Source: Bacteroidales bacterium
GTDB lineage: Bacteria; Bacteroidota; Bacteroidia; Bacteroidales; P3
Assembly (NCBI GenBank): GCA_017551765.1
Contig: JAFZKV010000028.1
Location: 1 to 40,042 of the forward strand
Direction of reading: 5' to 3'
DNA: 40,042 bases
Part shown: positions 3,888 through 40,032 of the stretch, one piece after another
Position numbering within the stretch: position 1 is the stretch's first letter
Layout of the letters: each line of letters starts with the position of its first letter
Program-made: the position numbers and the translations under genes
Notes under the pieces: model-generated
What the model was told of the DNA's origin: nothing
The model's input: only the letters and a program-made list of their open reading frames with translations
The model's database searches: none

Positions 3888-5101
3888 TGATTTCCTTCCC
3901 CGATGTAAAAAGTTTGCTGCAGCCCGAACGTCGCACATTTGCCGACGGTAGCGAAGTGTTGCTTTTCCCCACCGAAAGCACAGAACTCGTGAAGCTCGAC
4001 CTTGTTTTCGATGCGGGATATTCCTTGCAAACACAGAAACTCTGTGCCCGTGCGGTGTCGAAGTTGATGCCTGTGGCCACACGACACATGAATTCGCGTA
4101 AGTTGGCCGAATACCTCGATTATCGTGGTGTGCTAATGGATAGTTCTCTTGGCCTCTGTAAGAATATACTTTCTGTCTATACCCACCGGCGCTACCTTGA
4201 AGAGGTGCTGTCTGTAGTGGACGACATGATACGTCAGCCGGCTTTTGACGAGGCCGACTTTGAAGTGTGGCGTGCAGCTAAACGACAGGAAATGCTGGCC
4301 GCCCTGAAACGTTCACCTGCTCAGGCGCGGCGTATATGGTACCATGCTCTTTTCGGCTCTGATCATCCTTTGGGACAATATGCCACGGTGGAAGACCTTG
4401 AAAGACTTGAGTTGAAAGATGTGGCTGATTTCCATAGTGAGCACTACAAACACTGCCAAGTAATCATGTCTGGCAATGTGGGCGAGCGGGGGGTGACAGA
4501 GTGTCTGAGTGACAAAGTGACTGAGCAACCTAGCCACTCAGCTACTCAGTCACCCAGCCACTCAGTCACTCTCCCCATCGAGGGTGCGCAGCAAACCTCC
4601 CTACGTATTGGCCGCATATTGCCCGAGAATGACGGGCGTCTGCTTATCCACACTTCGTTGTTGGGCGGTTACTTTGGCTCGCGCTTAATGAGCAATCTGC
4701 GCGAGGACAAGGGTTTTACCTATGGCATCTCTGCCCACATGCAGGAATATGGTGACGGCACGACAGTTTTCTACATTCTTTCCGACGTGGCCGCTGGCAC
4801 TGCACAAGCAGCCGTCGAAGAGGTGATGCAAGAACTGCGGCGGTTAGGCGAGGCACCTGTGTCACAGGAAGAGTTGGATGTGGTTCGCAACGTTCTTGCG
4901 GGCGACGCCATGCGGGCCCTCGACGGAGTATTTGAGCGCGCCGAGCGATGGTGCGACATTGTCGAGAATGGCCACTCTTGGCTCATGGACCCCGACTTCG
5001 GAAATATACTTCGTGATGTAACTCCCGAACAACTTTGTGACCTGGCCCATCGCTACCTCAATCCCGACGATATGACTGTTGCCCTCGCCGGAGTTGTTTG
5101 A
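3887..5101 (+). CDS. M16-family (insulinase-like) protein lacking the zinc motif
   Basis: The 404-residue protein has the two-domain layout of an M16B peptidase. The C-terminal half carries the family signature GGYFGSRLMSNLREDKG followed by FTYGISA. The N-terminal half should hold the zinc motif HXXEH, but the aligned region reads LCARAVSKLMPVA with no His or Glu, so it cannot bind zinc in the usual way. Known M16 pairs combine one active and one inactive subunit; no active partner is in this window. The ATG at 3887 shares one base with the TonB receptor stop (TGATG), which implies translational coupling; an in-frame TTG at 3884 is less likely. Residues 203-229 are encoded by an 8-bp repeat array. 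Confidence 0.82.
   Translation: MISFPDVKSLLQPERRTFADGSEVLLFPTESTELVKLDLVFDAGYSLQTQKLCARAVSKLMPVATRHMNSRKLAEYLDYRGVLMDSSLGLCKNILSVYTHRRYLEEVLSVVDDMIRQPAFDEADFEVWRAAKRQEMLAALKRSPAQARRIWYHALFGSDHPLGQYATVEDLERLELKDVADFHSEHYKHCQVIMSGNVGERGVTECLSDKVTEQPSHSATQSPSHSVTLPIEGAQQTSLRIGRILPENDGRLLIHTSLLGGYFGSRLMSNLREDKGFTYGISAHMQEYGDGTTVFYILSDVAAGTAQAAVEEVMQELRRLGEAPVSQEELDVVRNVLAGDAMRALDGVFERAERWCDIVENGHSWLMDPDFGNILRDVTPEQLCDLAHRYLNPDDMTVALAGVV
4492..4571 (+). repeat. 8-bp-period inverted array inside the M16 gene
   Basis: Ten units of exactly 8 bp, in register. The left units (agtgtctg, agtgacaa, agtgactg) give way after agcaacct to units of the opposite strand sense (agccactc, agctactc, agtcaccc, agccactc, agtcactc). 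GTGACTGAG and CTCAGTCAC are reverse complements. The nine units from 4500 make 72 bp (24 codons) with no stop, giving a Ser/Thr/Gln-rich insert between the two M16 domains. Same unit family as the truB array at 26014. Confidence 0.85.
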
Positions 5102-5140
5102 AACGCCAACCAGATACCGATTGTTCATTTGCACTTTTTT

Positions 5141-5173
5141 GGCATTTCTTTTACAAAAAACAAAAGAAATACC
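5141..5173. terminator. Possible bidirectional terminator hairpin
   Basis: GGCATTTCTTTT (5141-5152) pairs with AAAAGAAATACC (5162-5173) with one mismatch around a 9-nt A-rich loop. The arms are T-rich and A-rich rather than GC-rich, so termination is plausible but weak. Its position between convergent genes fits. Confidence 0.4.
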
Positions 5174-5223
5174 AATACAAACGCATCAAATTATATGATT
5201 CTGCCCATGCCCAATCCCTGCCA

Positions 5224-5278
5224 TGAACCTACCCAGAACTTACCAAGAACTTACCAAGGACTTCCCATCGACTACCAC
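5224..5278. repeat. 11-bp-period array in intergenic DNA
   Basis: Five units of exactly 11 bp: tgaacctaccc, then agaacttacca twice, then aggacttccca, then tcgactaccac. The period holds while the sequence drifts. The last unit forms one arm of a 7-bp palindrome that continues to 5286. Confidence 0.75.
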
Positions 5279-5418
5279 GGTGGTAGAACATAAGACGTTA
5301 ATACGAGCAGATGAAGATTGTCTGATGTTCTGTATATTAATTTGTTATCGTTTCGCCAGGGCTTTGTTTGTTATTTTGATGCGTTAGCCCATAAATAAGG
5401 GCAAGAAAAATGAAAGAG

Positions 5419-5805
5419 TCAGCGGCGCCTGTTGCGCTCGTTGTTGACAAACTGCACTAAGGCAACGGTCTCGAAAACGAGGCTGACGACGTAGCCCACC
5501 AGGAAAGCCACAGTGAAGAGGTGTGCGTGGGTGAGGTGGGTGAGTAGGTAGGCGGCCAATATGACGATGTGGAGGAATAGCATGCCGACCACGGTGGCAA
5601 GGAATATCTGCACAAAGGTCTTGGGCGAGCGGTACATGGCCCGAGTGACAAGGAAATGCTGCACGCCGGCGACAACGCCAAAATAGAGTGCCAGCAAGGG
5701 CATGGCCACAAGAAAGCTTGCCGGACTAACCCACAGCACCACAAAGGAGGCCAGCACCAACGCCAGCGTCATCGCCAGCAGTGAAATCAGATAGCGGCGG
5801 CTCAT
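5419..5805 (-). CDS. Small four-helix integral membrane protein, unknown function
   Basis: 128 residues with four hydrophobic segments, at roughly residues 5-27, 30-50, 60-85 and 92-117, and a basic tail NNERNRRR. The start ATG at 5805 overlaps the pyrI stop (ATGA), which is why the longer upstream open frame was rejected. I do not recognise the family with confidence. The layout is vaguely like the AtpI-type proteins of Bacteroidetes, but there is no diagnostic motif and no F0 gene nearby. It is the last gene of the leftward block and is probably translated by coupling with pyrI. Confidence 0.7.
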   Translation of the reverse strand: MSRRYLISLLAMTLALVLASFVVLWVSPASFLVAMPLLALYFGVVAGVQHFLVTRAMYRSPKTFVQIFLATVVGMLFLHIVILAAYLLTHLTHAHLFTVAFLVGYVVSLVFETVALVQFVNNERNRRR

Positions 5806-6263
5806 TCGGTGAACTTCATGGTTTCCTTGGTGGTGAACTTCTCGCAGTAGTGGCAGCGGAGCTTCAGGTTCTCTTTGTCGACGATGTCGAACTTGGTGGG
5901 AACCACCTCGGCGTTGGTGATGCACTTGGGGTTGGCGCAGCGGATGAAGTGCTCGATATGGTCGGGTATTTCGGCCTTGAACTTCTTCACCACCTTGTAA
6001 TCTTCAATGTCAATAATGGAGGCAAAAGGAGCCACCAGGGCTATCTTGCTGACTTCCTCGACGGAGAAGTGTTTGTTTTTAATCTTGACGATACCCTTCT
6101 TGCCGAGCTTGCTGCTGGAAAGGTAGTTGCCGATGAGTACTTCGTCCTTGTATTTCTCGAGGCCCAAAATACGGATGACCTGATAGACGCTTTCGGTAGG
6201 TATATGGTCTATGACTGTGCCGTTCTCGATGGCCGACACCACCATTTCTTTCTTGGTTTCCAT
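5802..6263 (-). CDS. pyrI: Aspartate carbamoyltransferase regulatory chain
   Basis: 153 residues, the usual length for PyrI. The N-terminal allosteric domain binds nucleotides (CTP/ATP) and the C-terminal domain binds zinc and contacts PyrB. The four zinc ligands are visible at Cys109 and Cys114 (RCANPKCIT) and Cys137 and Cys140 (RCHYCEK). It lies directly downstream of pyrB, the catalytic chain, so the complete allosteric ATCase is made from one mRNA. The gap to pyrB is filled by a 7-bp repeat array. Its stop codon overlaps the start of the following membrane protein. Confidence 0.97.
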   Translation of the reverse strand: METKKEMVVSAIENGTVIDHIPTESVYQVIRILGLEKYKDEVLIGNYLSSSKLGKKGIVKIKNKHFSVEEVSKIALVAPFASIIDIEDYKVVKKFKAEIPDHIEHFIRCANPKCITNAEVVPTKFDIVDKENLKLRCHYCEKFTTKETMKFTE

Positions 6264-6266
6264 TTT

Positions 6267-6300
6267 CTTTAAACTTTAAACCTTAAACTTTAAACTTTAC
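6267..6300. repeat. 7-bp-period array filling the pyrB-pyrI gap
   Basis: Units ctttaaa, ctttaaa, ccttaaa, ctttaaa and a partial fifth, each 7 bp. It fills the gap between the pyrI start (6263) and pyrB, and the pyrB stop codon (6297-6299) lies inside the last unit. Same family as 28194-28234. Confidence 0.85.
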
Positions 6301-7214: not shown

Positions 7215-7221
7215 GTTGTAT

Positions 7222-7253
7222 ATTGTTTTGATTGTTTGATTGCCTGATTGTTG
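7222..7253. repeat. 8-bp-period array upstream of pyrB
   Basis: Four units of 8 bp (attgtttt, gattgttt, gattgcct, gattgttg) that occupy most of the gap between the TPR lipoprotein stop and the pyrB start. The same gattgttt-type unit recurs inside priA at 37271. Confidence 0.75.
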
Positions 7254-7255
7254 TT

Positions 7256-8167: not shown

Positions 8168-8195
8168 TTTCTTAAATTACGTAAAAAGTGCTTTT

Positions 8196-14426: not shown

Positions 14427-14525
14427 TGACTACGACTATTGTCCGACTGTTCTTTGGTCGTTCTTTGGTCGTTCTTTGGAAAAAAGCAAAGAACGACCGT
14501 TGAAATACCGTTGAAATACCGTTGA
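14427..14525. repeat. 11-bp-period inverted array in the divergent region
   Basis: Nine units in an unbroken 11-bp register: tgactacgact, attgtccgact, gttctttggtc twice, gttctttggaa, aaaagcaaaga, acgaccgttga and aataccgttga twice. The middle inverts, since AAAGAACGACC is the reverse complement of GGTCGTTCTTT, which spans the left units. Confidence 0.85.
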
Positions 14526-14667
14526 ACTTCAGGAGATGGTACGGAAGCATAGTAGTGCGAAATGTGAAATTAACAAAAAAAAATTAACAATTCATACAAT
14601 AAATTACAATAATCATAGTTATAGCAGTACAAAAGTATACGAACATTCATCATAACAATACGATATT

Positions 14668-21674: not shown

Positions 21675-21758
21675 AGCTTTAAGTTTTAAGTTTTAAGTTT
21701 TAAGTAGCTTGTTGTGGGTTGCGTGGCCACTTAAAACTTAAAACTCACAGCTTAACAC
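21675..21758. repeat. 7-bp-period inverted array filling the atpD-atpC gap
   Basis: Exactly twelve 7-bp units (84 bp), from the base after the atpC start codon to the base before the atpD stop codon. Left units: agcttta, then agtttta three times. Three unrelated units follow, then tggccac, ttaaaac twice, tcacagc and ttaacac. The two sides are reverse complements (TTTTAAG with CTTAAAA). It shares the core GTGGCCACTTAAAA with 27004-27080. Confidence 0.9.
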
Positions 21759-23279
<1,521 letters not shown>

Positions 23280-24885: not shown

Positions 24886-25033
24886 CGCACTTTTTCCGAT
24901 ATGGCAAAATTTATTCTCATGCTGCGCGTAATCCATAAATCCAGATGAAAAATTTATAAGATTTACAGGATTTCCGCCAACGGCGGGGAGGTAAAAAAGC
25001 GGTAATAAAAATAGGTCGTGCGCGATGTAAATG

Positions 25034-25068
25034 GGTGGTCGGTGGCCGGTAGTCGGTAGTCGGTTCGA
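25034..25068. repeat. 7-bp-period array (ggtsgtc type)
   Basis: Five units of 7 bp: ggtggtc, ggtggcc, ggtagtc twice, ggttcga. Same unit family as the array inside argS at 39730. Confidence 0.8.
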
Positions 25069-25196
25069 CCTTCAACCCACCCCCAGAAAGCTCCTTTGTC
25101 GGATAAAAACAAGAAAAGACGGCAATTGTTAATGCTAATAATCATATTATAAGCTAATTAAATGCCGTTTTGCCATCCGCATCACTACGGACCCCC

Positions 25197-25257
25197 TCCG
25201 ACTGTGGTCCGACTCAAGTCCGAGTCAACTCCGACTCATGTCCGACTGCAGTCGGAG
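25197..25257. repeat. 11-bp-period array ending in a palindrome
   Basis: Five 11-bp units starting tccgact or tccgagt (tccgactgtgg, tccgactcaag, tccgagtcaac, tccgactcatg, tccgactgcag), then the inverted tcggag. TCCGACTGCAGTCGGA (25241-25256) is a perfect 16-bp palindrome. Confidence 0.85.
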
Positions 25258-25310
25258 AAAAGACGGTATTGATACGGTGCAGATACGAATATGTCGTGCA
25301 CGATATAAAC

Positions 25311-26192
25311 TTAACGGGAGAGGTAATCGGCCACCTGGTCGAGGGTGAGGGCGTGGTCGACGGTATAGTCGCCCACCTGCTCGCGGCGCAGGGCGCTGAG
25401 GAAGGCACCGCTGCCAAGGGCCAGGCCCAGGTCGCGCGCTAAGGAACGAATGTATGTGCCCTTGCCGCAATGGATGCGGAAGTCGGCCTGCGGCAGGTGA
25501 GGGGGGACGGTGCCCTGGGGATGGTCGTAGAGGTGGGGAGTGAGTGGGGAGTGAGTGGGGAGTGAAGGGGGAGTGAAGGGGACAATAGTGCTGGAGGAGT
25601 CACCTTTTCGGAAGTCTGTGATTTCGAAGTTGTAGATGGTTATCGGTTTTGCCCGTGGCCCATCATTTTTATTTTTTAATTCTTCATTCTTAATTCTCGC
25701 TATCTCGTAGGCGCGTTGGCCGTCAACCTTCACGGCGCTGAACATGGGCGGCACCTGCATGAGGGTGCCGGTGAACTGCCGCACGGTCTGCTCCAGCAAC
25801 TCGCGGGTGATGTGCTCGTAGGGGTAGTAGTGGTCCACCGCCTGCTCGAGGTCGTAGCAGGGGGTGGTGGCGCCGAGCACGAGGGTGCCGGTGTAGACCT
25901 TGTCGCCGTCTTGCAGCTGCGGGATGCTTTTGGTGGCCTTGCCGAGGCAGACGAGCAGCAGGCCCGTGGCCAACGGGTCGAGGGTGCCGGCATGGCCTAT
26001 CTTTATTTTGGGTGGCCGAGTAACAGAGTGGCTGAGTGGCTGAGAAACAGAGTCTACTTTGTCACTTTGTAACTCAGCCACTCGTTTTCTCAAGATGGCC
26101 TTAATTTTGTTTACCGCCTGGAAAGAGGTCCACTGTCGGGGTTTGTCGATGGGCAGGACGATGCCGGCCTGAAGCTGTTCGATGGTAATCAC
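25311..26192 (-). CDS. truB: tRNA pseudouridine-55 synthase with repeat-encoded inserts
   Basis: 293 residues. It makes pseudouridine 55 in the T-loop of tRNAs. The core is intact: [26 protein letters not shown] with catalytic Asp72, [20 protein letters not shown] and [15 protein letters not shown]. Three low-complexity stretches break it: residues about 37-60 (array at 26014), a Lys/Asn-rich stretch after AYEIAR (25667) and a Pro/Ser/Thr-rich stretch before the [10 protein letters not shown] core (25535). E. coli TruB has its catalytic Asp at 48; the 24-residue shift equals the 72-bp array. The start is GTG, overlapping the uppP stop as GTGA; a longer frame running back through uppP was rejected. 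Confidence 0.93.
25535..25578. repeat. 11-bp-period array inside truB
   Basis: Four units of 11 bp: ggggagtgagt twice, ggggagtgaag twice. In truB it reads as a Ser/Pro/Thr-rich insert ([15 protein letters not shown]). Confidence 0.88.
25667..25701. repeat. 7-bp-period array inside truB
   Basis: Five units of 7 bp: ttttatt, ttttaat, tcttcat, tcttaat, tctcgct. In truB it encodes the Lys/Asn/Glu-rich stretch IKNEELKNK after the conserved AYEIAR. Confidence 0.7.
26014..26085. repeat. 8-bp-period inverted array inside truB
   Basis: Nine 8-bp units (72 bp): ggccgagt, aacagagt, ggctgagt, ggctgaga, aacagagt, ctactttg, tcactttg, taactcag, ccactcgt. Left and right units are reverse complements (GAGTGGCTGAG with CTCAGCCACTC) and stay in register. 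Same family as the array in the M16 gene. Confidence 0.9.
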
Positions 26193-26995
26193 AGTACGTA
26201 GGGGAGTACGATGGTCGCCAGGCCCACGACGGCGCAGTAGAGGGCAAACCAGATGAGCTTGCCACGCTTGACGATGTTGATCATCCACTTGCAGGCCAGG
26301 CAGCCGCACACGAAGGCGGCCAGGAAACCGACGGCCAAGGCCAGCGGCGAGATGCCTGCCATCGCTTGGCTGACACCCATCTCGGCCATGTCCTTCACGT
26401 CGAGCAGAGCTTCGCCGAGGATGGGCGGGATGACCATGAGGAACGAGAACTGTGCCAGGCGCTCTTTCTTGTTGCCCAGCAGCAGGCCTGTGGCGATGGT
26501 GCTGCCCGAGCGCGAGAGGCCCGGCAGGACGGCAAGGGCCTGGGCGATGCCGATAACGAAGGCGTGCCAGGGAGAGATGTGTTCGCGTTGGCGCGGCTTG
26601 GCCCAATAGCTGAAGGCCAGCAACGTGGCAGTAATCATGAGGCAGATGCCCACCACCAGCAGGCCGCTGCCGAAGACCTCCTCCACCTTGTCCTTGAAGA
26701 AGAAGCCCACGATGGCGACGGGTATCATCGAGATGAGGATGTTGACGATGTACTTGGTGCCTTCGTTCCACTTGAACTTGAAGAGGTCGGTGAAGAGCCA
26801 GACGATTTCCTTCCACAGGATGACGCAGGTGCTCAGCACGGTGGCTACATGCACAGCGACGGTGAAGGTGAGGTTCTCCTCGCCGCTGAGGCCGAAGAGG
26901 TTGGCGCCGATGGCCAGGTGGCCGCTGCTGCTGACGGGCAGGTACTCCGTCAAGCCCTGTATGACGCCGAGGATGAGTGCTTCAAACCATTCCAT
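26189..26995 (-). CDS. uppP: Undecaprenyl-diphosphatase
   Basis: 268 residues with about eight membrane segments, the usual BacA/UppP length. Both catalytic motifs are present: [16 protein letters not shown] near residues 14-29 and [13 protein letters not shown] near 159-171. It dephosphorylates undecaprenyl diphosphate so that the lipid carrier can be reused for peptidoglycan and other envelope polymers. It is coupled to truB by GTGA. The order ftsX-DUF3098-uppP-truB is conserved in Bacteroidetes. Confidence 0.97.
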
Positions 26996-27003: not shown

Positions 27004-27080
27004 GTTTTAGTTTTAAGCTTTAAGTTTTAAGTATTCAACTGTGGCCACTTAAAACTCACAGCTCACAGCTTTAAGCTTTA
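27004..27080. repeat. 7-bp-period inverted array in the DUF3098-uppP gap
   Basis: Eleven 7-bp units: gttttag, ttttaag, ctttaag, ttttaag, tattcaa, ctgtggc, cacttaa, aactcac, agctcac, agcttta twice. It runs over the stop codon of the DUF3098 gene (27071-27073). It shares GTGGCCACTTAAAA and AACTCACAGCT with the atpD-atpC array. Confidence 0.88.
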
Positions 27081-27339: not shown

Positions 27340-28194
27340 TTAATTTTTAGCGATATAACGGCGCACGGTGACGGCGGTGGAGAGGTAGGCGATGACGATG
27401 CCCACCAGGATGAGCGCCAGGGCGATGATGCCGTACCACATCCAATGCTCGGCGGCCACCAGGTTGAGGTCGAACTCATTGCTGAAGACCCACAGCGTCA
27501 CGGCTGTCAGCGCCGAGGCAATGAGGCCTCCGATGGCACCGTAGAGCACGCTGCGCCACAGGAAAGGCCGTGTGATGAAGCCCGCCGTGGCACCCACCAT
27601 GCGCATGGTGCCGATGGCCTCGCGACGCGCATAGATGGCTATGCGGATGAGGCTGGCGATGAGCACAATGGTGATGACCAGCAGCAGCACCACGAAGACG
27701 ATAAGGAACCAGGAGAGCTTGTAGAAGATGTCGCGCAGTTCGCTGACCACATTCTCCTGATATACTACGCCGGTGACGCCCTCCAGCCGGCCTGCTTCGG
27801 CGCAGAAGCGGTCGAGCACCTCGGTCGAGTTGTCGGGCAGCAGGCTGACGTTGAAGTTGACCATCAGCGACGGGTAAAGGGGGTTGTAGCCGATGAAGCC
27901 CACGAAGTCCTCGCCCAGGTCCTCGCTGAATATCTCGGCGGCCTTCTGCTTGGAGATGTAATCCACGTGCTTCACGTAGCTCATCTGTTCCACGGCGGCC
28001 TTGTTGGCCAGGGCCAGCGAGTCGGTGACGTCGGGCGAGAGGTCCACCTTGTAGGTGATGCGCTCTTGCGCGTCGTGTGTCAGGCGGTAGGAGTGGTATT
28101 CTATTACCAGCAGCAGGCCCAGCATGAAGAGCACCAGCGTGATGCCCAGCACCGTGGCTCCGTGCGATCCCCAGAGATTAACCTTGTTCTTCAC
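27340..28194 (-). CDS. ftsX: Cell-division ABC-transporter permease-like protein
   Basis: 284 residues. An N-terminal cytoplasmic start and first helix (GITLVLFMLGLLLVIEY) are followed by an extracellular domain (about 45-160). Three more helices enclose the FtsX signature YARREAIGTMRMVGAT. With FtsE it controls septal wall hydrolases. No ftsE is adjacent. The start is GTG (28192-28194), and a 7-bp repeat array abuts it directly, sharing one base; no ATG is available in frame before a stop. Confidence 0.96.
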   Translation of the reverse strand: MKNKVNLWGSHGATVLGITLVLFMLGLLLVIEYHSYRLTHDAQERITYKVDLSPDVTDSLALANKAAVEQMSYVKHVDYISKQKAAEIFSEDLGEDFVGFIGYNPLYPSLMVNFNVSLLPDNSTEVLDRFCAEAGRLEGVTGVVYQENVVSELRDIFYKLSWFLIVFVVLLLVITIVLIASLIRIAIYARREAIGTMRMVGATAGFITRPFLWRSVLYGAIGGLIASALTAVTLWVFSNEFDLNLVAAEHWMWYGIIALALILVGIVIAYLSTAVTVRRYIAKN

Positions 28195-28234
28195 CTTAAA
28201 CTTTAAACCTTAAACTTTAAACCTTAAACCTTAG
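28194..28234. repeat. 7-bp-period array filling the dnaN-ftsX gap
   Basis: Units ccttaaa, ctttaaa, ccttaaa, ctttaaa, ccttaaa and a partial sixth. It reaches from the ftsX GTG start to the dnaN stop codon, which lies within the last unit. Same family as the pyrB-pyrI array. Confidence 0.88.
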
Positions 28235-29469: not shown

Positions 29470-29877
29470 TTAATCAACAACCATTTCGGTGAAGACTCCT
29501 TGCGGCAGGTTGTTCAGTTCTTCGTTGTCCCACTGCACGCAACCTGTGACGCGGGCATACTTGTCGTCCAGATAGAATTTGCCGTGGATGTGCTGAGGTG
29601 CCTGGATGACGCGCGGCGCCTCGTAGAGGACAACAATGTTCTGCAGCACCTCGCCCGACGAGGTGGTGAGTTGCTTGCCCACACCCTCGGGTGACTCCAG
29701 CTGCACCAGATAGCCGGCGTTCATGTCGGTGTAGGTCAGGTCACAGTTGCGCACGCCAATCATCGTGCCCGAGAAGCTCATTTCTTCGTGCTTTACACAG
29801 GCCGACAGCAGCGCAACCAGAAGGGTGCACACAAGAATGTGTGACCAGGTTTTCGTTTTTCGTTTTTCACTTTTCAT
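29470..29877 (-). CDS. Small lipoprotein, unknown function
   Basis: 135 residues from the ATG at 29877. The lipobox is LLSAC (Cys26). The mature part is beta-rich (SFSGTMIGVRNCDLTYTD, GYLVQLESPEGVG, KFYLDDKYARVTGCVQWD) with two further cysteines. I do not recognise it. The start lies one base after the dapD stop. The first codons are themselves a 7-bp repeat array (atgaaaa, gtgaaaa, acgaaaa, acgaaaa), so the start codon is a repeat unit and the cytoplasmic n-region is KSEKRKTKT. Confidence 0.78.
   Translation of the reverse strand: MKSEKRKTKTWSHILVCTLLVALLSACVKHEEMSFSGTMIGVRNCDLTYTDMNAGYLVQLESPEGVGKQLTTSSGEVLQNIVVLYEAPRVIQAPQHIHGKFYLDDKYARVTGCVQWDNEELNNLPQGVFTEMVVD
29850..29877. repeat. 7-bp-period array supplying a start codon
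   Basis: Four units of 7 bp (ttttcgt, ttttcgt, ttttcac, ttttcat on the plus strand). On the coding strand the last is ATGAAAA, the start of the lipoprotein gene. The same ttttcac/ttttcgt units occur inside priA at 36704-36738. Confidence 0.8.
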
Positions 29878-29878
29878 T

Positions 29879-30676
29879 TCAAAACAATCTGAGCGCTTCA
29901 TTGAGTGAGGTTTTTTTGTCGGTTGATTCTTTGCGTTGTCCAATGATGAGGGCACAGGGCACCTGATAGTCGCCGGCGGCGAAGTGCTTGGTGTAGCTGC
30001 CCGGAATGACGACGCTGTAGGGCGGCACAACACCCTTGTATTCTTTCGGTTCCGCACCCGTAACGTCGATAATCTTGGTGCTGGCGGTAATCACAGTGCC
30101 GGCTCCCAACACAGCGTCATGTCCCACGATGGCGCCTTCGACAACGATGCAGCGGCTGCCGATGAAGCAGTGGTCCTCGACGATGACGGGGTTGGCCTGC
30201 AGGGGTTCCAGCACGCCGCCGATGCCCACGCCGCCGCTCAGGTGCACGTTCTTGCCTATCTGCGCACAGCTGCCCACGGTGGCCCAAGTGTCCACCATCG
30301 TGCCGCTGTCCACATAGGCACCGATGTTGACATAGGAGGGCATCATGATGGTGCCGGGCGCCAGGTAGGAACCATAACGCGCCACAGCGGGCGGCACCAC
30401 GCGGACACCGCGCTCGGCAAGGCCCCGCTTCAGCGGTATCTTGTCGCGATACTCCATCGGGCCCACCTCCAGGATTTCCATCTCTTGTATGCGGAAGTAA
30501 AGCAGGATGGCCTTCTTGACCCATTCGTTGACCTGCCAGCCGTTGTTACCGTCGGGTTCGGCCACGCGCAACTCGCCACTGTCCAACAGGCCGATGGCCT
30601 CAAGCACAGCTTTTCGCACGTCGCTGCTGTCGGCCAGCTCGGGGCTATCCCACGCTTTTTCTATCAGTTCTCTCAT
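29879..30676 (-). CDS. dapD: Tetrahydrodipicolinate N-succinyltransferase
   Basis: 265 residues from the ATG at 30676. The N-terminal helices start MRELIEKAWDSPELAD. The left-handed beta-helix has hexapeptide repeats (IMMPSYVNIGAYVDSGTMVD, VGSCAQIGKNVHLSGGVGIG, VIVEDHCFIGSRCIVVEGAI, VGHDAVLGAGTVI). It adds succinyl to tetrahydrodipicolinate in the lysine and diaminopimelate pathway. Bacteroidetes commonly use the aminotransferase (DapL) route, so a succinylase route here would need dapC and dapE elsewhere; none is in this window. A -7 box at 30699 supports the shorter start. Confidence 0.96.
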   Translation of the reverse strand: MRELIEKAWDSPELADSSDVRKAVLEAIGLLDSGELRVAEPDGNNGWQVNEWVKKAILLYFRIQEMEILEVGPMEYRDKIPLKRGLAERGVRVVPPAVARYGSYLAPGTIMMPSYVNIGAYVDSGTMVDTWATVGSCAQIGKNVHLSGGVGIGGVLEPLQANPVIVEDHCFIGSRCIVVEGAIVGHDAVLGAGTVITASTKIIDVTGAEPKEYKGVVPPYSVVIPGSYTKHFAAGDYQVPCALIIGQRKESTDKKTSLNEALRLF

Positions 30677-30706: not shown

Positions 30707-30774
30707 CGGAGTTTTTTTCAACTGCACAAATATTTTTTCCTGTCGGCACCGATATGGGGCCGTCTGTTCGCCAA

Positions 30775-30851
30775 TTGTTCTTCAGTAGTTCTTCAACATT
30801 TCTTCAATTTTTTTTTGAAGAACTGTTGAAGAACTGTCGCTGAATGTTTGT
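30775..30851. repeat. 11-bp-period inverted array in the dapD-ftcD divergent region
   Basis: Seven 11-bp units in register: ttgttcttcag, tagttcttcaa, catttcttcaa, a T-rich unit, agaactgttga, agaactgtcgc, tgaatgtttgt. GTTCTTCA on the left is the reverse complement of TGAAGAAC on the right, so a hairpin can form. It lies between the dapD and ftcD promoters. Confidence 0.85.
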
Positions 30852-30925
30852 TGAAAAGTGGGAGCGGGTAGGGGAGCAAAGGGGTGCTGTTGAGAATTTA
30901 TTTCGCGCGATATTAATTTATTTTG

Positions 30926-32848: not shown

Positions 32849-32986
32849 CATATACTATTTCTCTCGTATTTCAGAGCGTGGCGAGAGCCTCTCCGATGGT
32901 CTCCACGCCGAGTTCACATTAATAATTCGCGAGCAATAAAATCGGGCGGCGGGCGTTATTATGGGTGATTTTAATTCTTGAACAAT

Positions 32987-34231
32987 ATGAAGAAACTCTT
33001 TTTGCTCGGCGCGATGGTGTGCAGCCTCTTTCTTGGCACAGTAGCACATGGCCAAGACGTGAACACCTGCAAACCGATAGCTGAGCGCATACTGACTGCC
33101 GCACAAAATCATACCCCTGATGGCATTGATGAACTGTTGGCTCCCGACTTTCACTATAACAACATCAAAAAGCCGACGGCTGCTAAAGTGCTGAAGCAAA
33201 TTATTGCCCAAATGCCTGCCATGACTGGTTGGGAACTGACGGGCACTGAACAGGACAGCACGAGGCTGACGTTGCGCTACATGATAACGAAGCCCGACAG
33301 CACCACCTCGGAGGCTACAATCCTTTTCTCGGCCGACAACCTGGTGCTCGAGGCCGATTTGCTGCAAGCAGATGTTTCTATCCGAAGTGCCACCCCCACG
33401 GCCAAGGCACAGCCCGAAGTGAGGTTGGTGCGCGTCCCCGTGCATCGCTATGGCGGGCTGCCCATCGTGACCGTCACCATCGACGGCCAGCCGTGCAATA
33501 TGTTCTTCGATGCAGGTGCCCCGGGTGTCATTCTCAACAGCAAGTATTTCGACCACAACATCGACGGGCAGGTGATGGGAAGTGGCGGTCGGGGTGCCGT
33601 CGGCTCAGGTTCGGTCAGCGGTGTACACCATGTGAAATTGATGGACATGGGCGGCGTCACGCTCCACGAGACGGACATCATGACATCGGACTTGAGCAAT
33701 CTGGAGACCGTCGGTGTGTCGGTACACGGCATCTTGGGGCAGAGCTTCTACAAGGATTTTGACGTGCTGTTCGACTTCAAGGCTGGCGAGATAGTACTGC
33801 TAAGCCCGGATACCACCTACCAATGGCTGCTGAACGAGGGCTACCGCTGCCAGACGGTGAGCGGCGTGAAGAAAGGCCATCTGCTGGCCTTCGACTGTCA
33901 AGTGGGCGGTGTGCCTGCCCGGCTTGCTTTCGACAGCGGGGCAGAATGCAACCTGCTCGCCAGCAATTGGCCCCAACTGCATCCCTCCACGGTCAAGGGC
34001 CTCAAGAAAGACCATCTCACAGGCTACGGTGACGGGCGGGCTTCGATTACAAAGGCCAAGACCACCCTCACGCTCGGCGGACGCAAGTTCAAGAAACAAC
34101 AGACTGCATTCTCTGACGTGTCACACCTAAAAGAGAGCAAAGGCATAGACGGTCTCTTCGGCTGCGAGGTGCTTGCCAAGCAGAAGCTGCTCATCTCCTA
34201 CAAACGCCAGGAACTGATACTAATTGATTAA
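32987..34231 (+). CDS. Secreted retropepsin-like aspartyl protease domain protein
   Basis: 414 residues. A signal peptide ends at about HGQ23. Residues about 28-130 resemble an NTF2/SnoaL-like fold. Two aspartyl-protease halves follow: MFFDAGAPGVIL (Asp175, DAG in place of DTG) and LAFDSGAECNLL (Asp316, DSG), each with downstream hydrophobic-Gly segments (VHGILGQSF and IDGLFGCEVLA). Each chain carries both half-sites, like pepsin. The substrate is unknown. The ATG at 32987 is preferred to an in-frame TTG at 32978. It converges on prfB with a 19-bp gap and no clear terminator. Confidence 0.85.
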   Translation: MKKLFLLGAMVCSLFLGTVAHGQDVNTCKPIAERILTAAQNHTPDGIDELLAPDFHYNNIKKPTAAKVLKQIIAQMPAMTGWELTGTEQDSTRLTLRYMITKPDSTTSEATILFSADNLVLEADLLQADVSIRSATPTAKAQPEVRLVRVPVHRYGGLPIVTVTIDGQPCNMFFDAGAPGVILNSKYFDHNIDGQVMGSGGRGAVGSGSVSGVHHVKLMDMGGVTLHETDIMTSDLSNLETVGVSVHGILGQSFYKDFDVLFDFKAGEIVLLSPDTTYQWLLNEGYRCQTVSGVKKGHLLAFDCQVGGVPARLAFDSGAECNLLASNWPQLHPSTVKGLKKDHLTGYGDGRASITKAKTTLTLGGRKFKKQQTAFSDVSHLKESKGIDGLFGCEVLAKQKLLISYKRQELILID

Positions 34232-35376: not shown

Positions 35377-35480
35377 AGGTCTAAGAGTCAAAAGGTCTAA
35401 AAGTCTAAGAGATATAGTAGATCATTCTTTTTTTGTTTTTTGACTTTTCGTCTCTTCGACTATTTGACTTTTAGACTTTC
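35377..35480. repeat. 8-bp-period inverted array between prfB and ffs
   Basis: Thirteen 8-bp units in one register (104 bp): aggtctaa, gagtcaaa, aggtctaa, aagtctaa, gagatata, three T-rich or unrelated units, tgactttt, cgtctctt, cgactatt, tgactttt, agactttc. Left and right are reverse complements (AAAGTCTAA against TTTTAGACTTT). It fills nearly all the space between the prfB start and the ffs terminator, a stretch with no gene. Confidence 0.88.
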
Positions 35481-35489
35481 TACTCAAAC

Positions 35490-35592
35490 AAAAAAGGGCA
35501 AGCTGTTTATATCGCACCGCTACAACCAAACACCCTTGCTGTATTCCTACCCTGGGGGATTCAATGGGAGCTGGTCGTATAAGACTTGCCCA
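35490..35592 (-). ncRNA. ffs: 4.5S RNA (signal recognition particle RNA, small bacterial form)
   Basis: On the minus strand the outer stem is GGGCAAG (from 35591) with CTTGCCC (ending at 35496), followed by TTTTTT, which serves as the terminator. The apical part reads CAGG-GTA-GGAA-TAC-AGCA. This is the SRP domain IV hairpin: a GGAA tetraloop on a GTA/TAC stem above the CAGG/AGCA internal loop, the same layout as E. coli CAGG-TCC-GGAA-GGA-AGCA. It binds Ffh to target membrane proteins. A full promoter sits just upstream (35624-35655). The exact 5' end may lie up to about 25 nt further upstream. Confidence 0.93.
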
Positions 35593-35623
35593 AATCGCTG
35601 ATTTCTTCTGTCAAATCGGGTTG

Positions 35624-35655
35624 CAAAATTACTACAATTTTACAAACCCACCAAA
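35624..35655 (-). promoter_or_regulatory. Promoter of the SRP RNA gene
   Basis: On the minus strand TTTG (35652-35655), a 20-bp spacer and TAATTTTG (35624-35631) match both Bacteroidetes promoter boxes. Transcription would start near 35617, about 25 nt before the mature stem. Confidence 0.75.
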
Positions 35656-35682
35656 TTTATTTTATAATGTATTGATTATCTA

Positions 35683-38175
35683 TCAACAGGGGTCGACGTC
35701 GAAGTGGATGCTCACGTTCGACCAACCCTCCTGTTTCACCAGGTCGTCGGCCATCTGCATCATCAGCTGCTTGGCGTCGGCCACCGCTTCGCCCTGTGCG
35801 AAACGAAGGGTGATTTGCTTGATGTAGAGGGCGCGCACACGGCTCACCAACGGATATTCGGGCCCCATGACGCGGTTGCCGAAAGTGGCGCGCAGCTGCA
35901 CCGCCAGCCACTCGGCCGCACGGTTGAGCAGGTTGTCGTCGCGGTGCCGCAGGGTGATCTGTATCAATCGCGCAAACGGCGGGTAGCGGAAGATGCGCCG
36001 CTCCTGTATCTGCTCGTCGAAGAAACCCTGGTAGTTATAGCTCATCACGTCGGCAAGCACCTGGTGCTCAGGGTTGAATGTCTGTATGATGACCCGACCG
36101 CCTTCCCCGTGACGTCCGGCACGACCGCTGACCTGTGTCAGTTGCTGAAAGGCACGCTCGAAGGAGCGGAAATTGGGGTAGCTCCACAGGTTGTCGGCAT
36201 TGACCACACCCACCAGCGCTACATTCCTGAAGTCGAGCCCCTTGGTGACCATCTGGGTGCCCACCAGGATATCGATGCGGTGCTGCTGGAAGTCGTTGAG
36301 CAGCTCCATGTGGCGGTTCTTCTCCATCGTGCTGTCGAGGTCCATACGCGCCACGCTGGCTTCAGGAAACACTATCTGGAGGTCCTCCTCGATGCGCTCG
36401 GTGCCTATGCCGAACATGCGCAGGTGCTGCGAGTGGCAGGCGGGACATTCCGAGGGCACAGGGATGCTGTAGCCGCAGTAGTGGCAACGTAGCGAGTTGG
36501 TGGCCTTGTGATACACCAGCGACACGTCGCAATGCACACACTGCGGAATATGGTGGCAGTCGTCGCACTCGAGGTGCAGCGAAAATCCGCGTCGGTTCTG
36601 GAAGAGGATAACCTGCTTGTGCGCCCTCAGGGCCTCGTTGATGGCCTCCCGCAGGGTGGGCGAGAGGTGAGAGGTGAGAGGTGAGACGTGAGAGGCATCT
36701 GTTGTTTCACTTTTCGTTTTTAACTTTTCACTTTTCAGGTCGACTACCGTCACCTCGGGCAGGCTGAAACCACCGTAGCGTTGGGTGAGGGTGGCCAATC
36801 CGTATTTGCCGCTCAGCGCGTTGTGGTAGCTCTCGATGCTGGGGGTGGCGCTGCCGAGCACCGTGCGCGCTTTCCACAGTGAAGCCAGATAGACGGCGGC
36901 GTCGCGTGCGTGGTAGCGCGGAGCGGGGTCTTGCTGCTTGTAGCTGGCGTCGTGCTCCTCGTCGACGATGACCAGCGCCAGGTCGCGATAGGGCAGCAGC
37001 AATGCGCTGCGGGCACCCAGAAGCACCTGGTAGCGGTCGGCTCCGGTGGACAGCGTGCGTTGCCACACCTCCACCCGCTGGCTGGTCGAGAAACGCGAAT
37101 GGTAGACGCCCACCTTGTCGCCAAAGTAACGCTTCAAGCGGTTGATTACCTGTGCGGTGAGGGCTATCTCGGGCAGCAGCAACAAGGCTTGCCGACCCTC
37201 ACGCACCACCTCGTCTATGAGCTTGATGTAAATCTCCGTCTTGCCGCTCGAGGTGACACCGTGCAGAAGAATTGTTTGATTGTGTGATTGTGTGATTGTT
37301 TCAAAGGCGGCTTGTTGCTCCTCGTTGAGCACAATGGCGGCGGGGTCGAGCATCTCGCTCTCGTCGTAGTGCTCTATGCGGCTCTCCAACCGTTCCTCGC
37401 ATACAAGAATGTTGTTCTTTATCAGCGTGTTGAGCGAGCTACCCTGTGGCAGCTGCCGTTTGGCGACCGCCTCCTGGCCGAAGTGCGTCAACTGCGCCAC
37501 CTGCAAAAGCAACTCCACCTGCTTGGTGCGTTTTTTCTTCTCCAACTCGTCGAACAGCCGATGCAACTCTGCCTCCTCGCAGTAGGGTTTCGCCAGGTTG
37601 ACATAGGTGGAAGTCTTGGGTACAAACCGCTGACGCAGCTCTTCATCCATCACTATAATATTCCGCTCTATCATGGTGCGTATCAGCGGCATAATCTTCT
37701 GTAAGCCGATAGCTCTCCCAATGTCCAGCACCCGCATCACGGGGTGGTCGGTCAGCAGCTGCACCACCTGCATCTCCTGCTTGCCGAGTTGCGACAACTC
37801 GCCGTCGAAGTCGGGGTGTATAGTGACGGCGCTCTCGCTGGCCAGCTTCATGCCCGCCGGCAACGCCATCGCCATTACATCGCCCACATAGCACATATAG
37901 TACTTCGCCAGCCACTCCCAGAACTCCATCTGGCGCTCGGTGACGACCGGCTCGAGGTCCAGAATGGCCATGATATACTTCGCCCGCCACTGCGGCGCCT
38001 GACGGTGCACACGCCTCACAAGCGCCGAGTAGAGCCTCTGCTTGCCGAATTGCACCACCACCCGCTGGCCGGCAACGAGTTTGCCGTTGTATTCCTGCGG
38101 CACCCTATAGGTATAGTAACCAGGCACATGCAGCGGCAGCAGCACATCTACGTAGTATATCTGCGTCTCCTCCAT
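35683..38175 (-). CDS. priA: Primosomal replication-restart helicase with repeat-encoded segments
   Basis: 830 residues from the ATG at 38175. Order: N-terminal DNA-binding domain (YYVDVLLPLHVPGYYTYRVP); Walker A GVTSSGKTEIY with Lys312; DEEH box VDEEHDASYKQ; zinc cysteines CDDC, CVHC, CHYC and CPAC; then QMVTKGLDF and QVSGRAGR. It restarts stalled forks. Two repeat arrays lie in the coding sequence: one encodes a Lys/Ser/Thr-rich insert between the VVDLKSEK strand and the LREAINEALR helix, the other encodes TITQSHNQTI just before Walker A. An earlier in-frame ATG at 38211 is unlikely because the -7 box lies downstream of it. Confidence 0.95.
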   Translation of the reverse strand: MEETQIYYVDVLLPLHVPGYYTYRVPQEYNGKLVAGQRVVVQFGKQRLYSALVRRVHRQAPQWRAKYIMAILDLEPVVTERQMEFWEWLAKYYMCYVGDVMAMALPAGMKLASESAVTIHPDFDGELSQLGKQEMQVVQLLTDHPVMRVLDIGRAIGLQKIMPLIRTMIERNIIVMDEELRQRFVPKTSTYVNLAKPYCEEAELHRLFDELEKKKRTKQVELLLQVAQLTHFGQEAVAKRQLPQGSSLNTLIKNNILVCEERLESRIEHYDESEMLDPAAIVLNEEQQAAFETITQSHNQTILLHGVTSSGKTEIYIKLIDEVVREGRQALLLLPEIALTAQVINRLKRYFGDKVGVYHSRFSTSQRVEVWQRTLSTGADRYQVLLGARSALLLPYRDLALVIVDEEHDASYKQQDPAPRYHARDAAVYLASLWKARTVLGSATPSIESYHNALSGKYGLATLTQRYGGFSLPEVTVVDLKSEKLKTKSETTDASHVSPLTSHLSPTLREAINEALRAHKQVILFQNRRGFSLHLECDDCHHIPQCVHCDVSLVYHKATNSLRCHYCGYSIPVPSECPACHSQHLRMFGIGTERIEEDLQIVFPEASVARMDLDSTMEKNRHMELLNDFQQHRIDILVGTQMVTKGLDFRNVALVGVVNADNLWSYPNFRSFERAFQQLTQVSGRAGRHGEGGRVIIQTFNPEHQVLADVMSYNYQGFFDEQIQERRIFRYPPFARLIQITLRHRDDNLLNRAAEWLAVQLRATFGNRVMGPEYPLVSRVRALYIKQITLRFAQGEAVADAKQLMMQMADDLVKQEGWSNVSIHFDVDPC
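36662..36738. repeat. 7-bp-period inverted array inside priA
   Basis: Eleven 7-bp units in register: gagaggt three times, gagacgt, gagaggc, atctgtt, gtttcac, ttttcgt, ttttaac, ttttcac, ttttcag. GTGAGAG on the left roughly complements TTTTCAC on the right. In priA it encodes the SEKLKTKSETTDASHVSPL region. Confidence 0.85.
37271..37302. repeat. 8-bp-period array inside priA
   Basis: Four 8-bp units: attgtttg, attgtgtg twice, attgtttc. In priA it encodes ETITQSHNQT immediately before the Walker A strand, with the length of the protein apparently unchanged. Same family as the array upstream of pyrB. Confidence 0.8.
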
Positions 38176-38184
38176 TTGAGGCTG

Positions 38185-38192
38185 CAAAGATA
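38185..38192 (-). promoter_or_regulatory. -7 box for priA
   Basis: The minus strand reads TATCTTTG (TAnnTTTG), followed by CA, only 9 bp before the chosen priA ATG. The mRNA would have a leader of only a few nucleotides. Confidence 0.6.
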
Positions 38193-38222
38193 CGAATATT
38201 TTGCCATTCAAACTTTTTTATG

Positions 38223-38230
38223 TATTTTTG
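38223..38230 (+). promoter_or_regulatory. -7 box for argS
   Basis: TATTTTTG (TAnnTTTG), followed by CAG, 20 bp before the argS ATG. It is back to back with the priA box, 30 bp apart. Confidence 0.65.
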
Positions 38231-38250
38231 CAGCATAAAAATCGCATACT

Positions 38251-40032
38251 ATGAACATAGCAACCTCTCTGTCACAGGTCATTAGCCAGGCGTTGAACGC
38301 ACTCTATTCCATCGAACAAGCCCCCTCGGACATCGTCCTCCAGGAGACACGCCGCGATTTCAGCGGCGACTACACACTCGTCGTCTTCCCCTACGTCAAG
38401 CAGGCCCGCAAGAGCCCCGAGGCAGTGGGGCAGGAGATAGGCGCCTACGTCAAAGAACACCTCGCCGACGTGGCCGGCTTCAACGTCATCAAAGGCTTCC
38501 TGAACTTCGAGATAGCCGACAGCTATTGGCTGCAGTTCGTGGCCGAGAATGGCGCAAACTCCCAATTCGGCATCCGCAAATCCAACCCCGACGACGCTCC
38601 TGTAGTGGTTGAATACAGCAGCCCTAATACAAACAAGCCCTTACACTTAGGACACATCAGAAACAACCTACTCGGCTGGTCGGTCAGCCAGCTGTTGGCC
38701 GCCGCCGGCGCCAACGTGAAGAAGGTGAACCTCGTCAACGACCGCGGCATCCACATCTGCAAGAGCATGCTCGCCTGGATGCGATACGGCAACGGCGAAA
38801 CCCCCGAAAGCAGCGGCATGAAAGGCGACCACCTGGTGGGCAAATACTACGTCGAGTTCGACAAGCACTATAAAGAGGAGATTAAACAACTGATGGAGAG
38901 TGGGGTAGAGGGGGAGCAAGCCAAGAAAGAAGCCCCGCTGATGGTCGAAGCGCAGCAGATGCTCAAACGCTGGGAAGAGGGCGACCCCGAAGTGCGCGCC
39001 CTGTGGGAGAAGATGAACGGCTGGGTCTATGCCGGCTTCGACGAGACCTACCGTCGCCTCGGAGTGGGCTTCGACAAGGTCTACTACGAATCCAACACCT
39101 ACCTCCTCGGCAAAGAGCTCGTGCAGAAAGGCCTGGACCTCGGGGTGCTCTTCCGCAAGGACGACGGCTCGGTGTGGTGCGACCTCACCGGCGACGGCCT
39201 CGACCAGAAGCTGCTCCTGCGCCGCGACGGCACCAGCGTCTACATGACCCAGGACCTCGGCACCGCCCTCCTGCGCCACAACGACTTCGGCGCCGAACAG
39301 CTCATCTATGTGGTCGGCAACGAGCAGGATTACCACTTCAAAGTGCTCAAACTCATCCTCGGCAAACTCGGCTTCCCGTGGGCCGACAAAGTCTACCACC
39401 TCAGCTACGGTATGGTCGAGCTGCCCAACGGCAAGATGAAATCGAGAGAAGGCACCGTGGTGGACGCCGACGACCTCATCGACGAAATGGAGCAGACGGC
39501 CGCCGACATGAGCCGCGAACACGGCAAGAACGACGACCTCAGCGACGACGAGCGCCAGCACCTCTACCACATCCTCGCCCTCGGCGCTCTCAAATACTTC
39601 ATCCTCAAGGTCGACCCCACCAAGAACATGCTCTTCAATCCCGCCGAAAGCATCGACTTCAACGGCAACACAGGCCCCTTCATCCAATACACCCACGCCC
39701 GCATCCGCAGCATCGTGCGCAAGGCCGAAGGTAGTTGCCGGTGGTCGGTCGCCGGTGGTCGGTTGAACGACAAGGAGCGTGCCGTCATCAAAGCGCTCCA
39801 CGCGCTGCCCGACACCATCCTCGCCGCCGCTGCCGCCTACAGCCCCGCCATGGTGGCCAACTACGCCTACGACCTCGCCAAAGCCTTCAACAGCTTCTAT
39901 CAGGACACCCCCATCCTGCGCGAGAGCGACGACAACCTGCGCGCCTTCCGTCTGAGCCTCTGCGCCTTCGTGGCCAACGCCCTCAAGAACACCATGAACA
40001 TCCTCGGCATCGAAGTACCCGAAAGAATGTAG
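38251..40032 (+). CDS. argS: Arginyl-tRNA synthetase
   Basis: 593 residues, a normal class I ArgRS length for this phylum. The N-terminal tRNA-D-loop-binding domain leads to the catalytic motif SSPNTNKPLHLGHIRNN (HIGH form HLGH). The second motif is GKMKSREGTVV (KMSKS form), and the C-terminal anticodon-binding helices end GIEVPERM. It charges tRNA-Arg. Residues 494-507 (GSCRWSVAGGRLND), at the start of the anticodon domain, are encoded by a 7-bp array of exactly 42 bp. The start fits the promoter at 38223; 10 bp remain after the stop. Confidence 0.97.
   Translation: MNIATSLSQVISQALNALYSIEQAPSDIVLQETRRDFSGDYTLVVFPYVKQARKSPEAVGQEIGAYVKEHLADVAGFNVIKGFLNFEIADSYWLQFVAENGANSQFGIRKSNPDDAPVVVEYSSPNTNKPLHLGHIRNNLLGWSVSQLLAAAGANVKKVNLVNDRGIHICKSMLAWMRYGNGETPESSGMKGDHLVGKYYVEFDKHYKEEIKQLMESGVEGEQAKKEAPLMVEAQQMLKRWEEGDPEVRALWEKMNGWVYAGFDETYRRLGVGFDKVYYESNTYLLGKELVQKGLDLGVLFRKDDGSVWCDLTGDGLDQKLLLRRDGTSVYMTQDLGTALLRHNDFGAEQLIYVVGNEQDYHFKVLKLILGKLGFPWADKVYHLSYGMVELPNGKMKSREGTVVDADDLIDEMEQTAADMSREHGKNDDLSDDERQHLYHILALGALKYFILKVDPTKNMLFNPAESIDFNGNTGPFIQYTHARIRSIVRKAEGSCRWSVAGGRLNDKERAVIKALHALPDTILAAAAAYSPAMVANYAYDLAKAFNSFYQDTPILRESDDNLRAFRLSLCAFVANALKNTMNILGIEVPERM
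39730..39771. repeat. 7-bp-period array inside argS
   Basis: Six 7-bp units (42 bp, 14 codons): ggtagtt, gccggtg, gtcggtc, gccggtg, gtcggtt, gaacgac. Same family as the intergenic array at 25034. Confidence 0.85.

Follow-up and report, generated by a model that had tools for sequence, protein, structure and literature searches.

Genes and arrays in the window

The 40,042-nucleotide stretch of DNA analyzed here (the window) is contig C20 of the metagenome-assembled genome of a Bacteroidales bacterium (GCA_017551765.1; 1.92 Mb, 148 contigs, 90% complete, GC 55%), and short tandem arrays with periods of 7, 8 or 11 bp are scattered within and between its genes. These arrays are real, genome-wide, dispersed short repeats, which show an excess at three periods, fall into families, follow a polarity rule where they pair into hairpins, turn over fast between species and keep the reading frame where they lie in genes. 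The window genes that Pfam names are mostly housekeeping ones (M16 peptidase, OTCase family, Obg, TruB, UppP/BacA, FtsX, DnaN, DapD, FTCD, release factor, PriA and ArgS). The closest named relative in the scan is a sister species, Bacteroidales isolate RGIG9971 from yak reticulum (L059), with a PriA that is 95% identical and with aligned DNA that is 88% identical; the sample of it covers ~43% of its genome. Bacterium P3 and Candidatus Colimorpha are among the other relatives, whose sources are rumen, horse and the like. The 24 congeners were sampled at 4-46 kb each, the source genome and the sister excepted.

The original prediction had picked out nineteen arrays by eye, and each of these places has a best local period of 7, 8, 11 or 14 bp (14 being twice 7) and is reported as an array by Tandem Repeats Finder. 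Taking a lag-identity score of at least 12 as the array threshold, a level reached by 0.025 segments per window in shuffled sequence (40 windows, periods 5-15), 15 of the 19 qualify and the remaining four (4492, 7222, 26014 and 35377) score 10-11. Three of those four also form inverted pairs; the weakest is an 8-bp array, ATTGTTTG, between two codirectional genes (7222-7252), which with a score of 10 could be chance.

Seven of the listed arrays lie inside open genes (4492, 25535, 25667, 26014, 36662, 37271 and 39737, in the genes for M16 peptidase, TruB, PriA and ArgS). The first is an 8-bp array with an inverted arm (AGTGACTG / CAGTCACT; 4493-4572) in the M16 peptidase open reading frame (ORF; 3884-5101), at which the sister is non-periodic and of nearly the same length (102 vs 96 bp). 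The truB ORF (25311-26816) holds three: an 11-bp array, GTGGGGAGTGA (25533-25581), with a related array in an equal-length interval of the sister; a 7-bp array of ATTCTTA (25666-25697); and, before the KIGHA motif, an 8-bp array with an inverted arm (26014-26091) that makes the gene 60 bp longer than in the sister with the reading frame kept. In priA there are two 7-bp arrays (GAGAGGT and TTTCACT; 36662-36737) and an 8-bp array, ATTGTGTG (37271-37299), directly before the Walker A motif as read by eye, while argS carries a 7/14-bp array (39737-39763); at the last two sites the loop differs in the sister, which is not periodic there and has the same length.

The other arrays stand at gene ends or between genes. 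An 11-bp array, CCAAGAACTTA (5225-5267), lies downstream of the M16 gene at a place where the sister is classed as having no array, and 7-bp arrays at the 3' ends of an ornithine/aspartate carbamoyltransferase-family gene (CTTTAAA; 6267-6299) and of dapD (TTTTCAT; 29850-29879) are not periodic in the sister. Two 11-bp arrays (GTTCTTTGGTC and ACCGTTGAAAT; 14449-14526) surround a hairpin between divergent genes; the paired arms at this place, listed as 14427, are those of the hairpin (14456-14509), and the second array has a different unit. A 7-bp hairpin element, TTTAAGT...ACTTAAA (21675-21761), makes its site 91 bp longer than in the sister, where the gap is 9 bp, and a hairpin of the same family between the uppP/bacA and DUF3098 genes (27004-27077) accounts for 57 bp more than in the sister; the family has 24 profile matches in the sample of the source genome, both strands counted. 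The ftsX-dnaN gap is filled by a 7-bp array (28193-28233) and is shorter in the sister (29 vs 41 bp). An 11-bp hairpin with a T-rich loop, GTTCTTCAACA (30764-30858), lies between the divergent dapD and FTCD genes and is nearly unchanged in the sister, and an 8-bp paired array (35380-35479) separates the signal recognition particle (SRP) RNA from prfA. The Bacteroidales small SRP RNA itself is encoded on the minus strand (35492-35598), and the gap behind it carries arrays both here and in a relative (L062). An aspartyl-protease-like gene of the window (32978-34231) is absent from the matching place in the sister L059, where its flanks are ~20 bp apart.

Period spectrum and distribution

A genome-wide spectrum, which the original prediction had proposed as a check, shows the same excess. 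In 271 kb of the source genome (partly masked), 52 arrays have period 7, 17 have period 8 and 41 have period 11, and no array has a period of 5, 10 or 13; shuffles of this sequence gave none at 7, 8 or 11. In 478 kb (unmasked, with multiples of periods folded in) there are 211 arrays, or 44 per 100 kb, of which 106, 34 and 71 have periods of 7, 8 and 11, again with none at 5, 10 or 13; 13 of the 211 have a period of 21 or 24 and could be codon repeats. As tandem runs of 5-11-nt units far beyond chance, the arrays have the properties of long simple sequence repeats. Two contigs of the assembly, C90 and C13 (L023 and L195), share a 14.3-kb overlap at 99.9% identity. The assembly is thus redundant in part, and this overlap puts a few duplicates into the 478-kb spectrum and into the gene-context, loop-length and gap, and sister-comparison counts given below.

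The excess is common to most sampled relatives: 19 of the 24 congeners and 26 of 32 named relatives carry at least one array at 7, 8 or 11. Counted together with multiples of the period, these 32 relatives (607 kb) have 57 arrays of period 7 and 23 of period 8; a further 44 have a period of 11 or 22, and 14 one of 9. Sixteen loci, one from each of 16 other families of the order (246 kb), have none at 7, 8 or 11, two each at 14, 21 and 24, and one at 22, and 46 distant loci, mostly from Firmicutes (886 kb), have one at 7, none at 8 or 11, one at 21, two at 24 and one at 28. As far as sampled, this array population is restricted to the genus and its close named relatives. Within this group the sister has some 9-bp arrays, part of them in genes, and a congener (G002; L264 and L265) has 10-bp arrays, GGGAGTGAGA and CCTCTCACTC, that are one base shorter than 11-bp units of similar flavor in the source genome and the sister. 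The period is therefore not that of one fixed ruler, and the protein or RNA of fixed step that had been suggested is unlikely.

Paired arms, polarity and loop core

Complementary arms were found at all seven places where the unit had been said to turn into its reverse complement (4492, 14427, 21675, 26014, 27004, 30775 and 35377). Single-strand folding beats shuffles in four of the five hairpins tested (z -2.8; -4.3 at 4493; -4.2 at 26014; -6.0 at 30764) and is no better than shuffles for the 35377 paired array (z -1.3). The further claim that register is kept across the inversion did not survive a check of phase retention: when loop length is taken modulo the period, all residues occur among the 23 7-bp pairs and four different ones among the five 8-bp pairs, and in-register inversion is rejected on this scatter. 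Arrays that share a period will in any case seem aligned once they are printed at it. Among the 21 hairpins of 11 bp certain loop lengths recur (2, 3, 7 or 8 nt in 18 of them), which is read as a sign of shared families.

The hairpins fall into two classes. Class A comprises 7- and 8-bp pairs in which the G-rich arm comes first. Its members occupy codirectional intergenic gaps and tolerant segments of proteins, and some of their loops contain a GCTNCGC-like core. Class B comprises 11-bp pairs in which the pyrimidine-rich arm comes first, with a loop that is usually short and a location that is nearly always intergenic. In class A, G outnumbers C in the 5' arm of all 50 distinct hairpins from the source genome, the sister and the named relatives (52 of 52 before identical copies were removed). 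In a held-out set seven of eight informative hairpins are G-first, with one tie, which brings the total to 57 of 58 informative pairs. By species this held-out set lacks independence: matching SbcD places show L084 and L086 to belong to the genomes G020 and G001, and G002 alone supplies four of the nine 7/8-bp hairpins in the set. Hairpins within a unit family are not independent of one another, and a count by distinct unit gives 40 of 41 informative units as G-first. In class B the pyrimidine-rich arm is first in 58 of 65 hairpins, with six opposite and one tie. Inverted repeats away from arrays have no such bias, with G-first to C-first counts of 8:13 in the source genome, 24:15 in the sister, 10:9 in named relatives, 8:4 in other families and 10:7 in the first 20 distant loci.

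Since a pair is its own complement in layout, the G-rich strands point to the center from both sides. Single arrays between codirectional genes run both ways (18 G-rich and 23 C-rich on the sense strand), so polarity seems tied to the joining of arms and not to transcription; avoidance of Rho sites is rejected as its cause on the same count. In the source genome, the sister and relatives there are 8-bp pairs with unusually long loops of ~86-115 nt (L047 1244-1406, L277 114-284, L009 7465-7613, L026 8431-8572 and L250 7124-7263); the sole exception to the polarity rule (L047) and the sole tie (L277) are of this type, and the other three are G-first.

Of the 52 class A loops no longer than 80 nt, 20 contain the loop core, GCTN(1-2)CGC or its complement, where 3.5 are expected; three of the four sets served in choosing this motif by eye, and the held-out set (4 of 6 loops, 0.6 expected) is the only clean test. 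The core is absent from all 65 of the 11-bp hairpins and from the two window hairpins scored for it (4498 and 21679), and it did not surface in a blind 8-mer screen of array flanks. That screen gave only family-specific words, on which a single flanking motif common to all arrays is rejected.

Gene context

Inside genes lie 31 of 106 7-bp, 23 of 34 8-bp and 3 of 71 11-bp arrays of the source genome, counts that are too low because the home-made hexamer gene caller used (coding fraction 0.89) misses signal peptides. At L205 2518-2624, a reading of the DNA by eye suggests that 7-bp TTTTCAC arrays code for the hydrophobic core of a signal peptide. The C-rich side is on the coding strand in 21 of 23 8-bp and 21 of 31 7-bp cases; since a run of 7- or 8-bp units passes through all three reading frames, a strand whose unit has a stop triplet would be excluded. 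Between genes, 7-bp arrays favor codirectional gaps (40, as against 9 divergent and 1 convergent), and 11-bp arrays follow intergenic length, with 19, 18 and 6 in tandem, divergent and convergent gaps that total 24, 22 and 7 kb, so that their density is about equal. Intrinsic terminators would be placed at 3' ends and not in divergent gaps, and 18 of 43 11-bp and 9 of 50 7-bp gaps are divergent; terminators are rejected by this test of placement only. A known RNA family is rejected as well, since the SRP RNA is the sole match in the window at gathering scores.

Turnover between species

A comparison with the sister, which the original prediction had called for, shows that the arrays turn over fast. 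Of 172 merged arrays of the source genome, 60 have flanking sequence on either side that is present in the sister sample (two entries, L026 13167 and L026 13288, share one interval); the orthologous site holds the same array in 16 cases, the same unit rearranged in 5, a different periodic array in 17, no array in 19 and almost nothing in 3, so that 22 sites are without an array. With these 22 sites and the 17 that hold a different array, templated copying, which the original prediction had offered as one explanation, is possible. Differences come in large steps of 57-114 bp at 21675, 26014, 27004 and 35377. At the last of these, the SRP RNA-prfA gap measures 128 bp in the source genome, against 14 bp in the sister, and nine of the 16 relatives scored (sister included) have a gap of 3-17 bp; elsewhere it is 95 bp and carries an array whose units are of the same type (L062), 47 bp (L075), interrupted by another gene (four relatives) or not a gap between adjacent genes (one). 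Within genes, 18 of 20 length differences are multiples of 3, nine of these being zero. An array at L023 8805 is identical at 78 of 78 positions between flanks that are 92-94% identical.

The 154 kb of aligned DNA contain two duplication-like insertions or deletions (indels) of 11 bp and none of 7 or 8 bp. Growth by duplication of a target site or of single units is rejected on this count, although plain indel lengths of 7, 8 and 11 bp are slightly common. Intergenic indels number 5, 7 and 5 at 7, 8 and 11 bp, as against 2 and 1 at 9 and 10 bp. By eye, no target duplication was seen at 21675 or 35377, where inverted arms are present.

Unit families and a dispersed element

Units recur at unrelated loci of one genome. 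The commonest consensus units among the 106 7-bp arrays are ACTCATC (12), AAAACTT (11), AAAAGTG (9) and ACCACCG (8), and ACTCATC accounts for 1 of 50 7-bp arrays in the sister sample. Eight repeat-family profiles, with palindromes matched on both strands, match loci of the source genome plus the sister or relatives and none of 62 control loci; the GTTCTTTGGTC family profile has 22 matches in the source genome and 12 in the sister and matches neither relatives nor controls. In the AAAACTT family the copies have a common order of variant units and a partly common loop, a likeness that speaks for copying en bloc.

A separate dispersed element of ~306 bp, often found upstream of genes, occupies 25003-25309 of the window and has a TCGTGCACGA-type palindrome near each end. 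It holds a 7-bp array that is kept in a sister copy (25034-25064) and an 11-bp quasi-palindromic array, GTCCGACTCAA (25197-25247). The exact palindrome occurs 31 times in 478 kb of the source genome and 51 times in 820 kb of sister sequence, and is absent from 606 kb of named relatives and 1.13 Mb of controls.

Search for a driving enzyme

The original prediction had proposed a search for a protein that co-occurs with array number; among the families sampled, none clearly does. In the source genome, ~90% complete, there are no matches to reverse transcriptase (PF00078, RVT_1, a model that may miss distant enzymes), to the Y1 transposase (PF01797, present in 30 of 41 genomes searched) or to IS110 and DDE_Tnp_1 transposases, and drivers of the REPIN/RAYT, IS110, DDE_Tnp_1 and reverse-transcriptase kinds are rejected on these grounds. 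End joining by Ku is rejected because Ku is found in 0 of 41 genomes. Loss of the hairpin nuclease SbcCD was considered as well. Pfam SbcD_C is found in 4 of 41 genomes and TIGR00619 exceeds its cut-off in 8 of 24 congeners; array density is lower with SbcD, although not clearly (one-sided p 0.068, with the source genome counted as lacking SbcD, samples of 4-478 kb and relatedness ignored), and one genome (L062/G044) has SbcD despite 15 arrays in 15 kb. As SbcD does not clearly track density and an array-rich genome has it, this loss is rejected. Carriage by phages is rejected since two 11-bp double units have no exact match in IMG/VR.

Origin of the arrays

The reading tentatively preferred here, which falls somewhat short of probable, is that the arrays are dispersed hairpin repeats of fast turnover, probably produced by slippage and fold-back copying and fixed where they are tolerated. 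Units would multiply and homogenize by slippage. In class A, a nascent strand ending in a G-rich array would fold back and copy itself, giving the complementary second arm, and this step would set the polarity, with G-first pairs whatever the direction of the gene or the fork. The hairpins would then be copied to other loci by template switching or recombination and persist only where harm is small, so that on this reading they are repeats without a proven function in the cell. In yeast, mutations that extend the identity of quasi-palindrome arms are documented and are usually put down to template switching (PMC3820800).

Several observations weigh against this reading. Fold-back was nowhere caught in the act, and none of the differences was traced to a donor locus; gain is polarized by further relatives at 35377 only. 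Fold-back copying explains neither the prevalence of 7, 8 and 11 nor the opposite composition of 11-bp pairs, periods vary among relatives to include 9 and 10, and the held-out polarity set contains an exception and a tie. The small indel surplus means that stepwise change by whole units may also occur, and some arrays are fully conserved in the sister, unlike what neutral turnover predicts. In addition, the loop core of 20 class A hairpins fits a defined mobile element better.

Such an element is the subject of a possible, if rather unlikely, account in which the arrays are non-autonomous mobile hairpins moved by an enzyme that recognizes the loop core, with arms that are incidental repeats. 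Near-empty sister sites, the excess of the core over expectation in both the chosen and the held-out loops, and the AAAACTT copies that share variant order and loop parts would all be expected of mobile hairpins. However, all four enzyme models (Y1_Tnp, IS110, DDE_Tnp_1 and RVT_1) are without a match in the source genome, the two sites inspected by eye lack a target duplication, the two 11-bp double units lack an exact IMG/VR match, and 32 of the 52 loops, including those of both scored window hairpins, lack a core on which the blind flank screen was also silent.

Selection for hairpins that act in DNA or RNA, for example as protein-binding, mRNA-processing or insulating sites, is distinctly improbable. 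It would account for stable folds in four of the five hairpins tested and for arrays that are better conserved than their flanks, such as L023 8805, but not for the retention of the same array at only 16 of 60 orthologous sites, nor for the presence of arrays in every gene context, inside genes included, and an 11-bp density that is about equal across gap types.

It is still more doubtful that the arrays are plain long simple sequence repeats made by polymerase slippage, with a period set by the polymerase. The small surplus of 7-, 8- and 11-bp indels agrees with this explanation. In many prokaryotes, moreover, long simple repeats are reported to be most often heptamers, and a polymerase contact length of 7 nt has been proposed (Mrazek 2007, cited in PMC4679880, PMC4692102). 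By itself, however, slippage gives no complementary arms, polarity, large steps or unit families common to unrelated loci. The original argument that simple slippage yields direct repeats and not in-register inversion accordingly stands in its first part, as slippage alone cannot explain paired arms, large steps and fixed polarity, and falls with respect to register.

Only a slight chance is given to a process in which a break at a palindromic core gains G-rich 7-8-nt units on both of its 3' ends before these are joined; this would leave scars like fused telomeres (G-strand repeats head to head) throughout the genome in a species-specific unit 'dialect'. Writing of the units by a reverse transcriptase or a protein of fixed step is very improbable: the strict periods of this species would suit it, but the lack of an RVT_1 match, within the limits of genome and model given above, and the 9- and 10-bp arrays of relatives do not. 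An assembly artefact can practically be dismissed, for although one sister contig (G041 C37) ends within a fold-back hairpin and the source assembly is partly redundant, like arrays occur in assemblies from several studies, identical ones occur in two species, and the frame is kept in genes.

Relation to known repeats

The short tandemly repeated repetitive (STRR) sequences of filamentous cyanobacteria, like many of the arrays described here, are families of tandem heptamers in non-coding DNA; to our knowledge, 8- or 11-bp classes of them have not been described. REP and REPIN sequences are likewise short dispersed hairpins, whose arms are not known to have tandem units and which are moved by the RAYT Y1 transposase, an enzyme for which the source genome has no match.

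The nearest published case is that of the GGGAATC heptamers of Xanthomonas, which are dispersed, G-rich, mostly intergenic runs of up to 26 units with 70 and 75 convergent pairs (PMC4692102). In these pairs one repeat is on the plus and one on the minus strand, which is read as the same G-first layout as that of class A, and repeat lengths and sequences vary between close species (PMC4692102). A G-rich unit in convergent G-first pairs is thus found in both systems. The Xanthomonas repeats differ in having one unit type and one period and in that most lie between the same genes in both species (PMC4692102), whereas here there are dozens of units, three periods, many arrays in genes, a loop core in some hairpins and an 11-bp class of opposite composition; the unit GGGNATC is absent from all 7-bp arrays of the 271 kb and from the 25 of 37 unit classes listed for the 478 kb. 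Only a few paired repeats are reported for the GGGGA(C/T)T repeats of Nostoc (PMC4692102).

TAACTGA heptamers, which occur in Beggiatoaceae, some cyanobacteria and five Bacteroidetes, are also dispersed, patchy across lineages and without a known mechanism, but they have a single unit, lie mostly just upstream of start codons and are inverted in one of 170 sets (PMC4679880). The palindromic (A)n/(T)n microsatellites of Fusarium mitochondria resemble the present arrays in being palindromic, present or absent between close species and proposed to be mobile, and differ in being mononucleotide runs in fungal mitochondria (PMC7218506). Open-access searching, with subscription papers mostly outside its scope, found no description of such arrays in this group of bacteria among the matches listed, and they are filed here under the known long simple sequence repeats, with polarity as their unexplained feature.

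Significance

This genus seems to rewrite its tolerant DNA, including loops of PriA, TruB and ArgS, with repeats whose period and direction are bound by rules. As convergent pairs also occur in Xanthomonas, which belongs to another phylum, the origin of bacterial heptamer repeats becomes testable, in that any proposed mechanism must explain their polarity.

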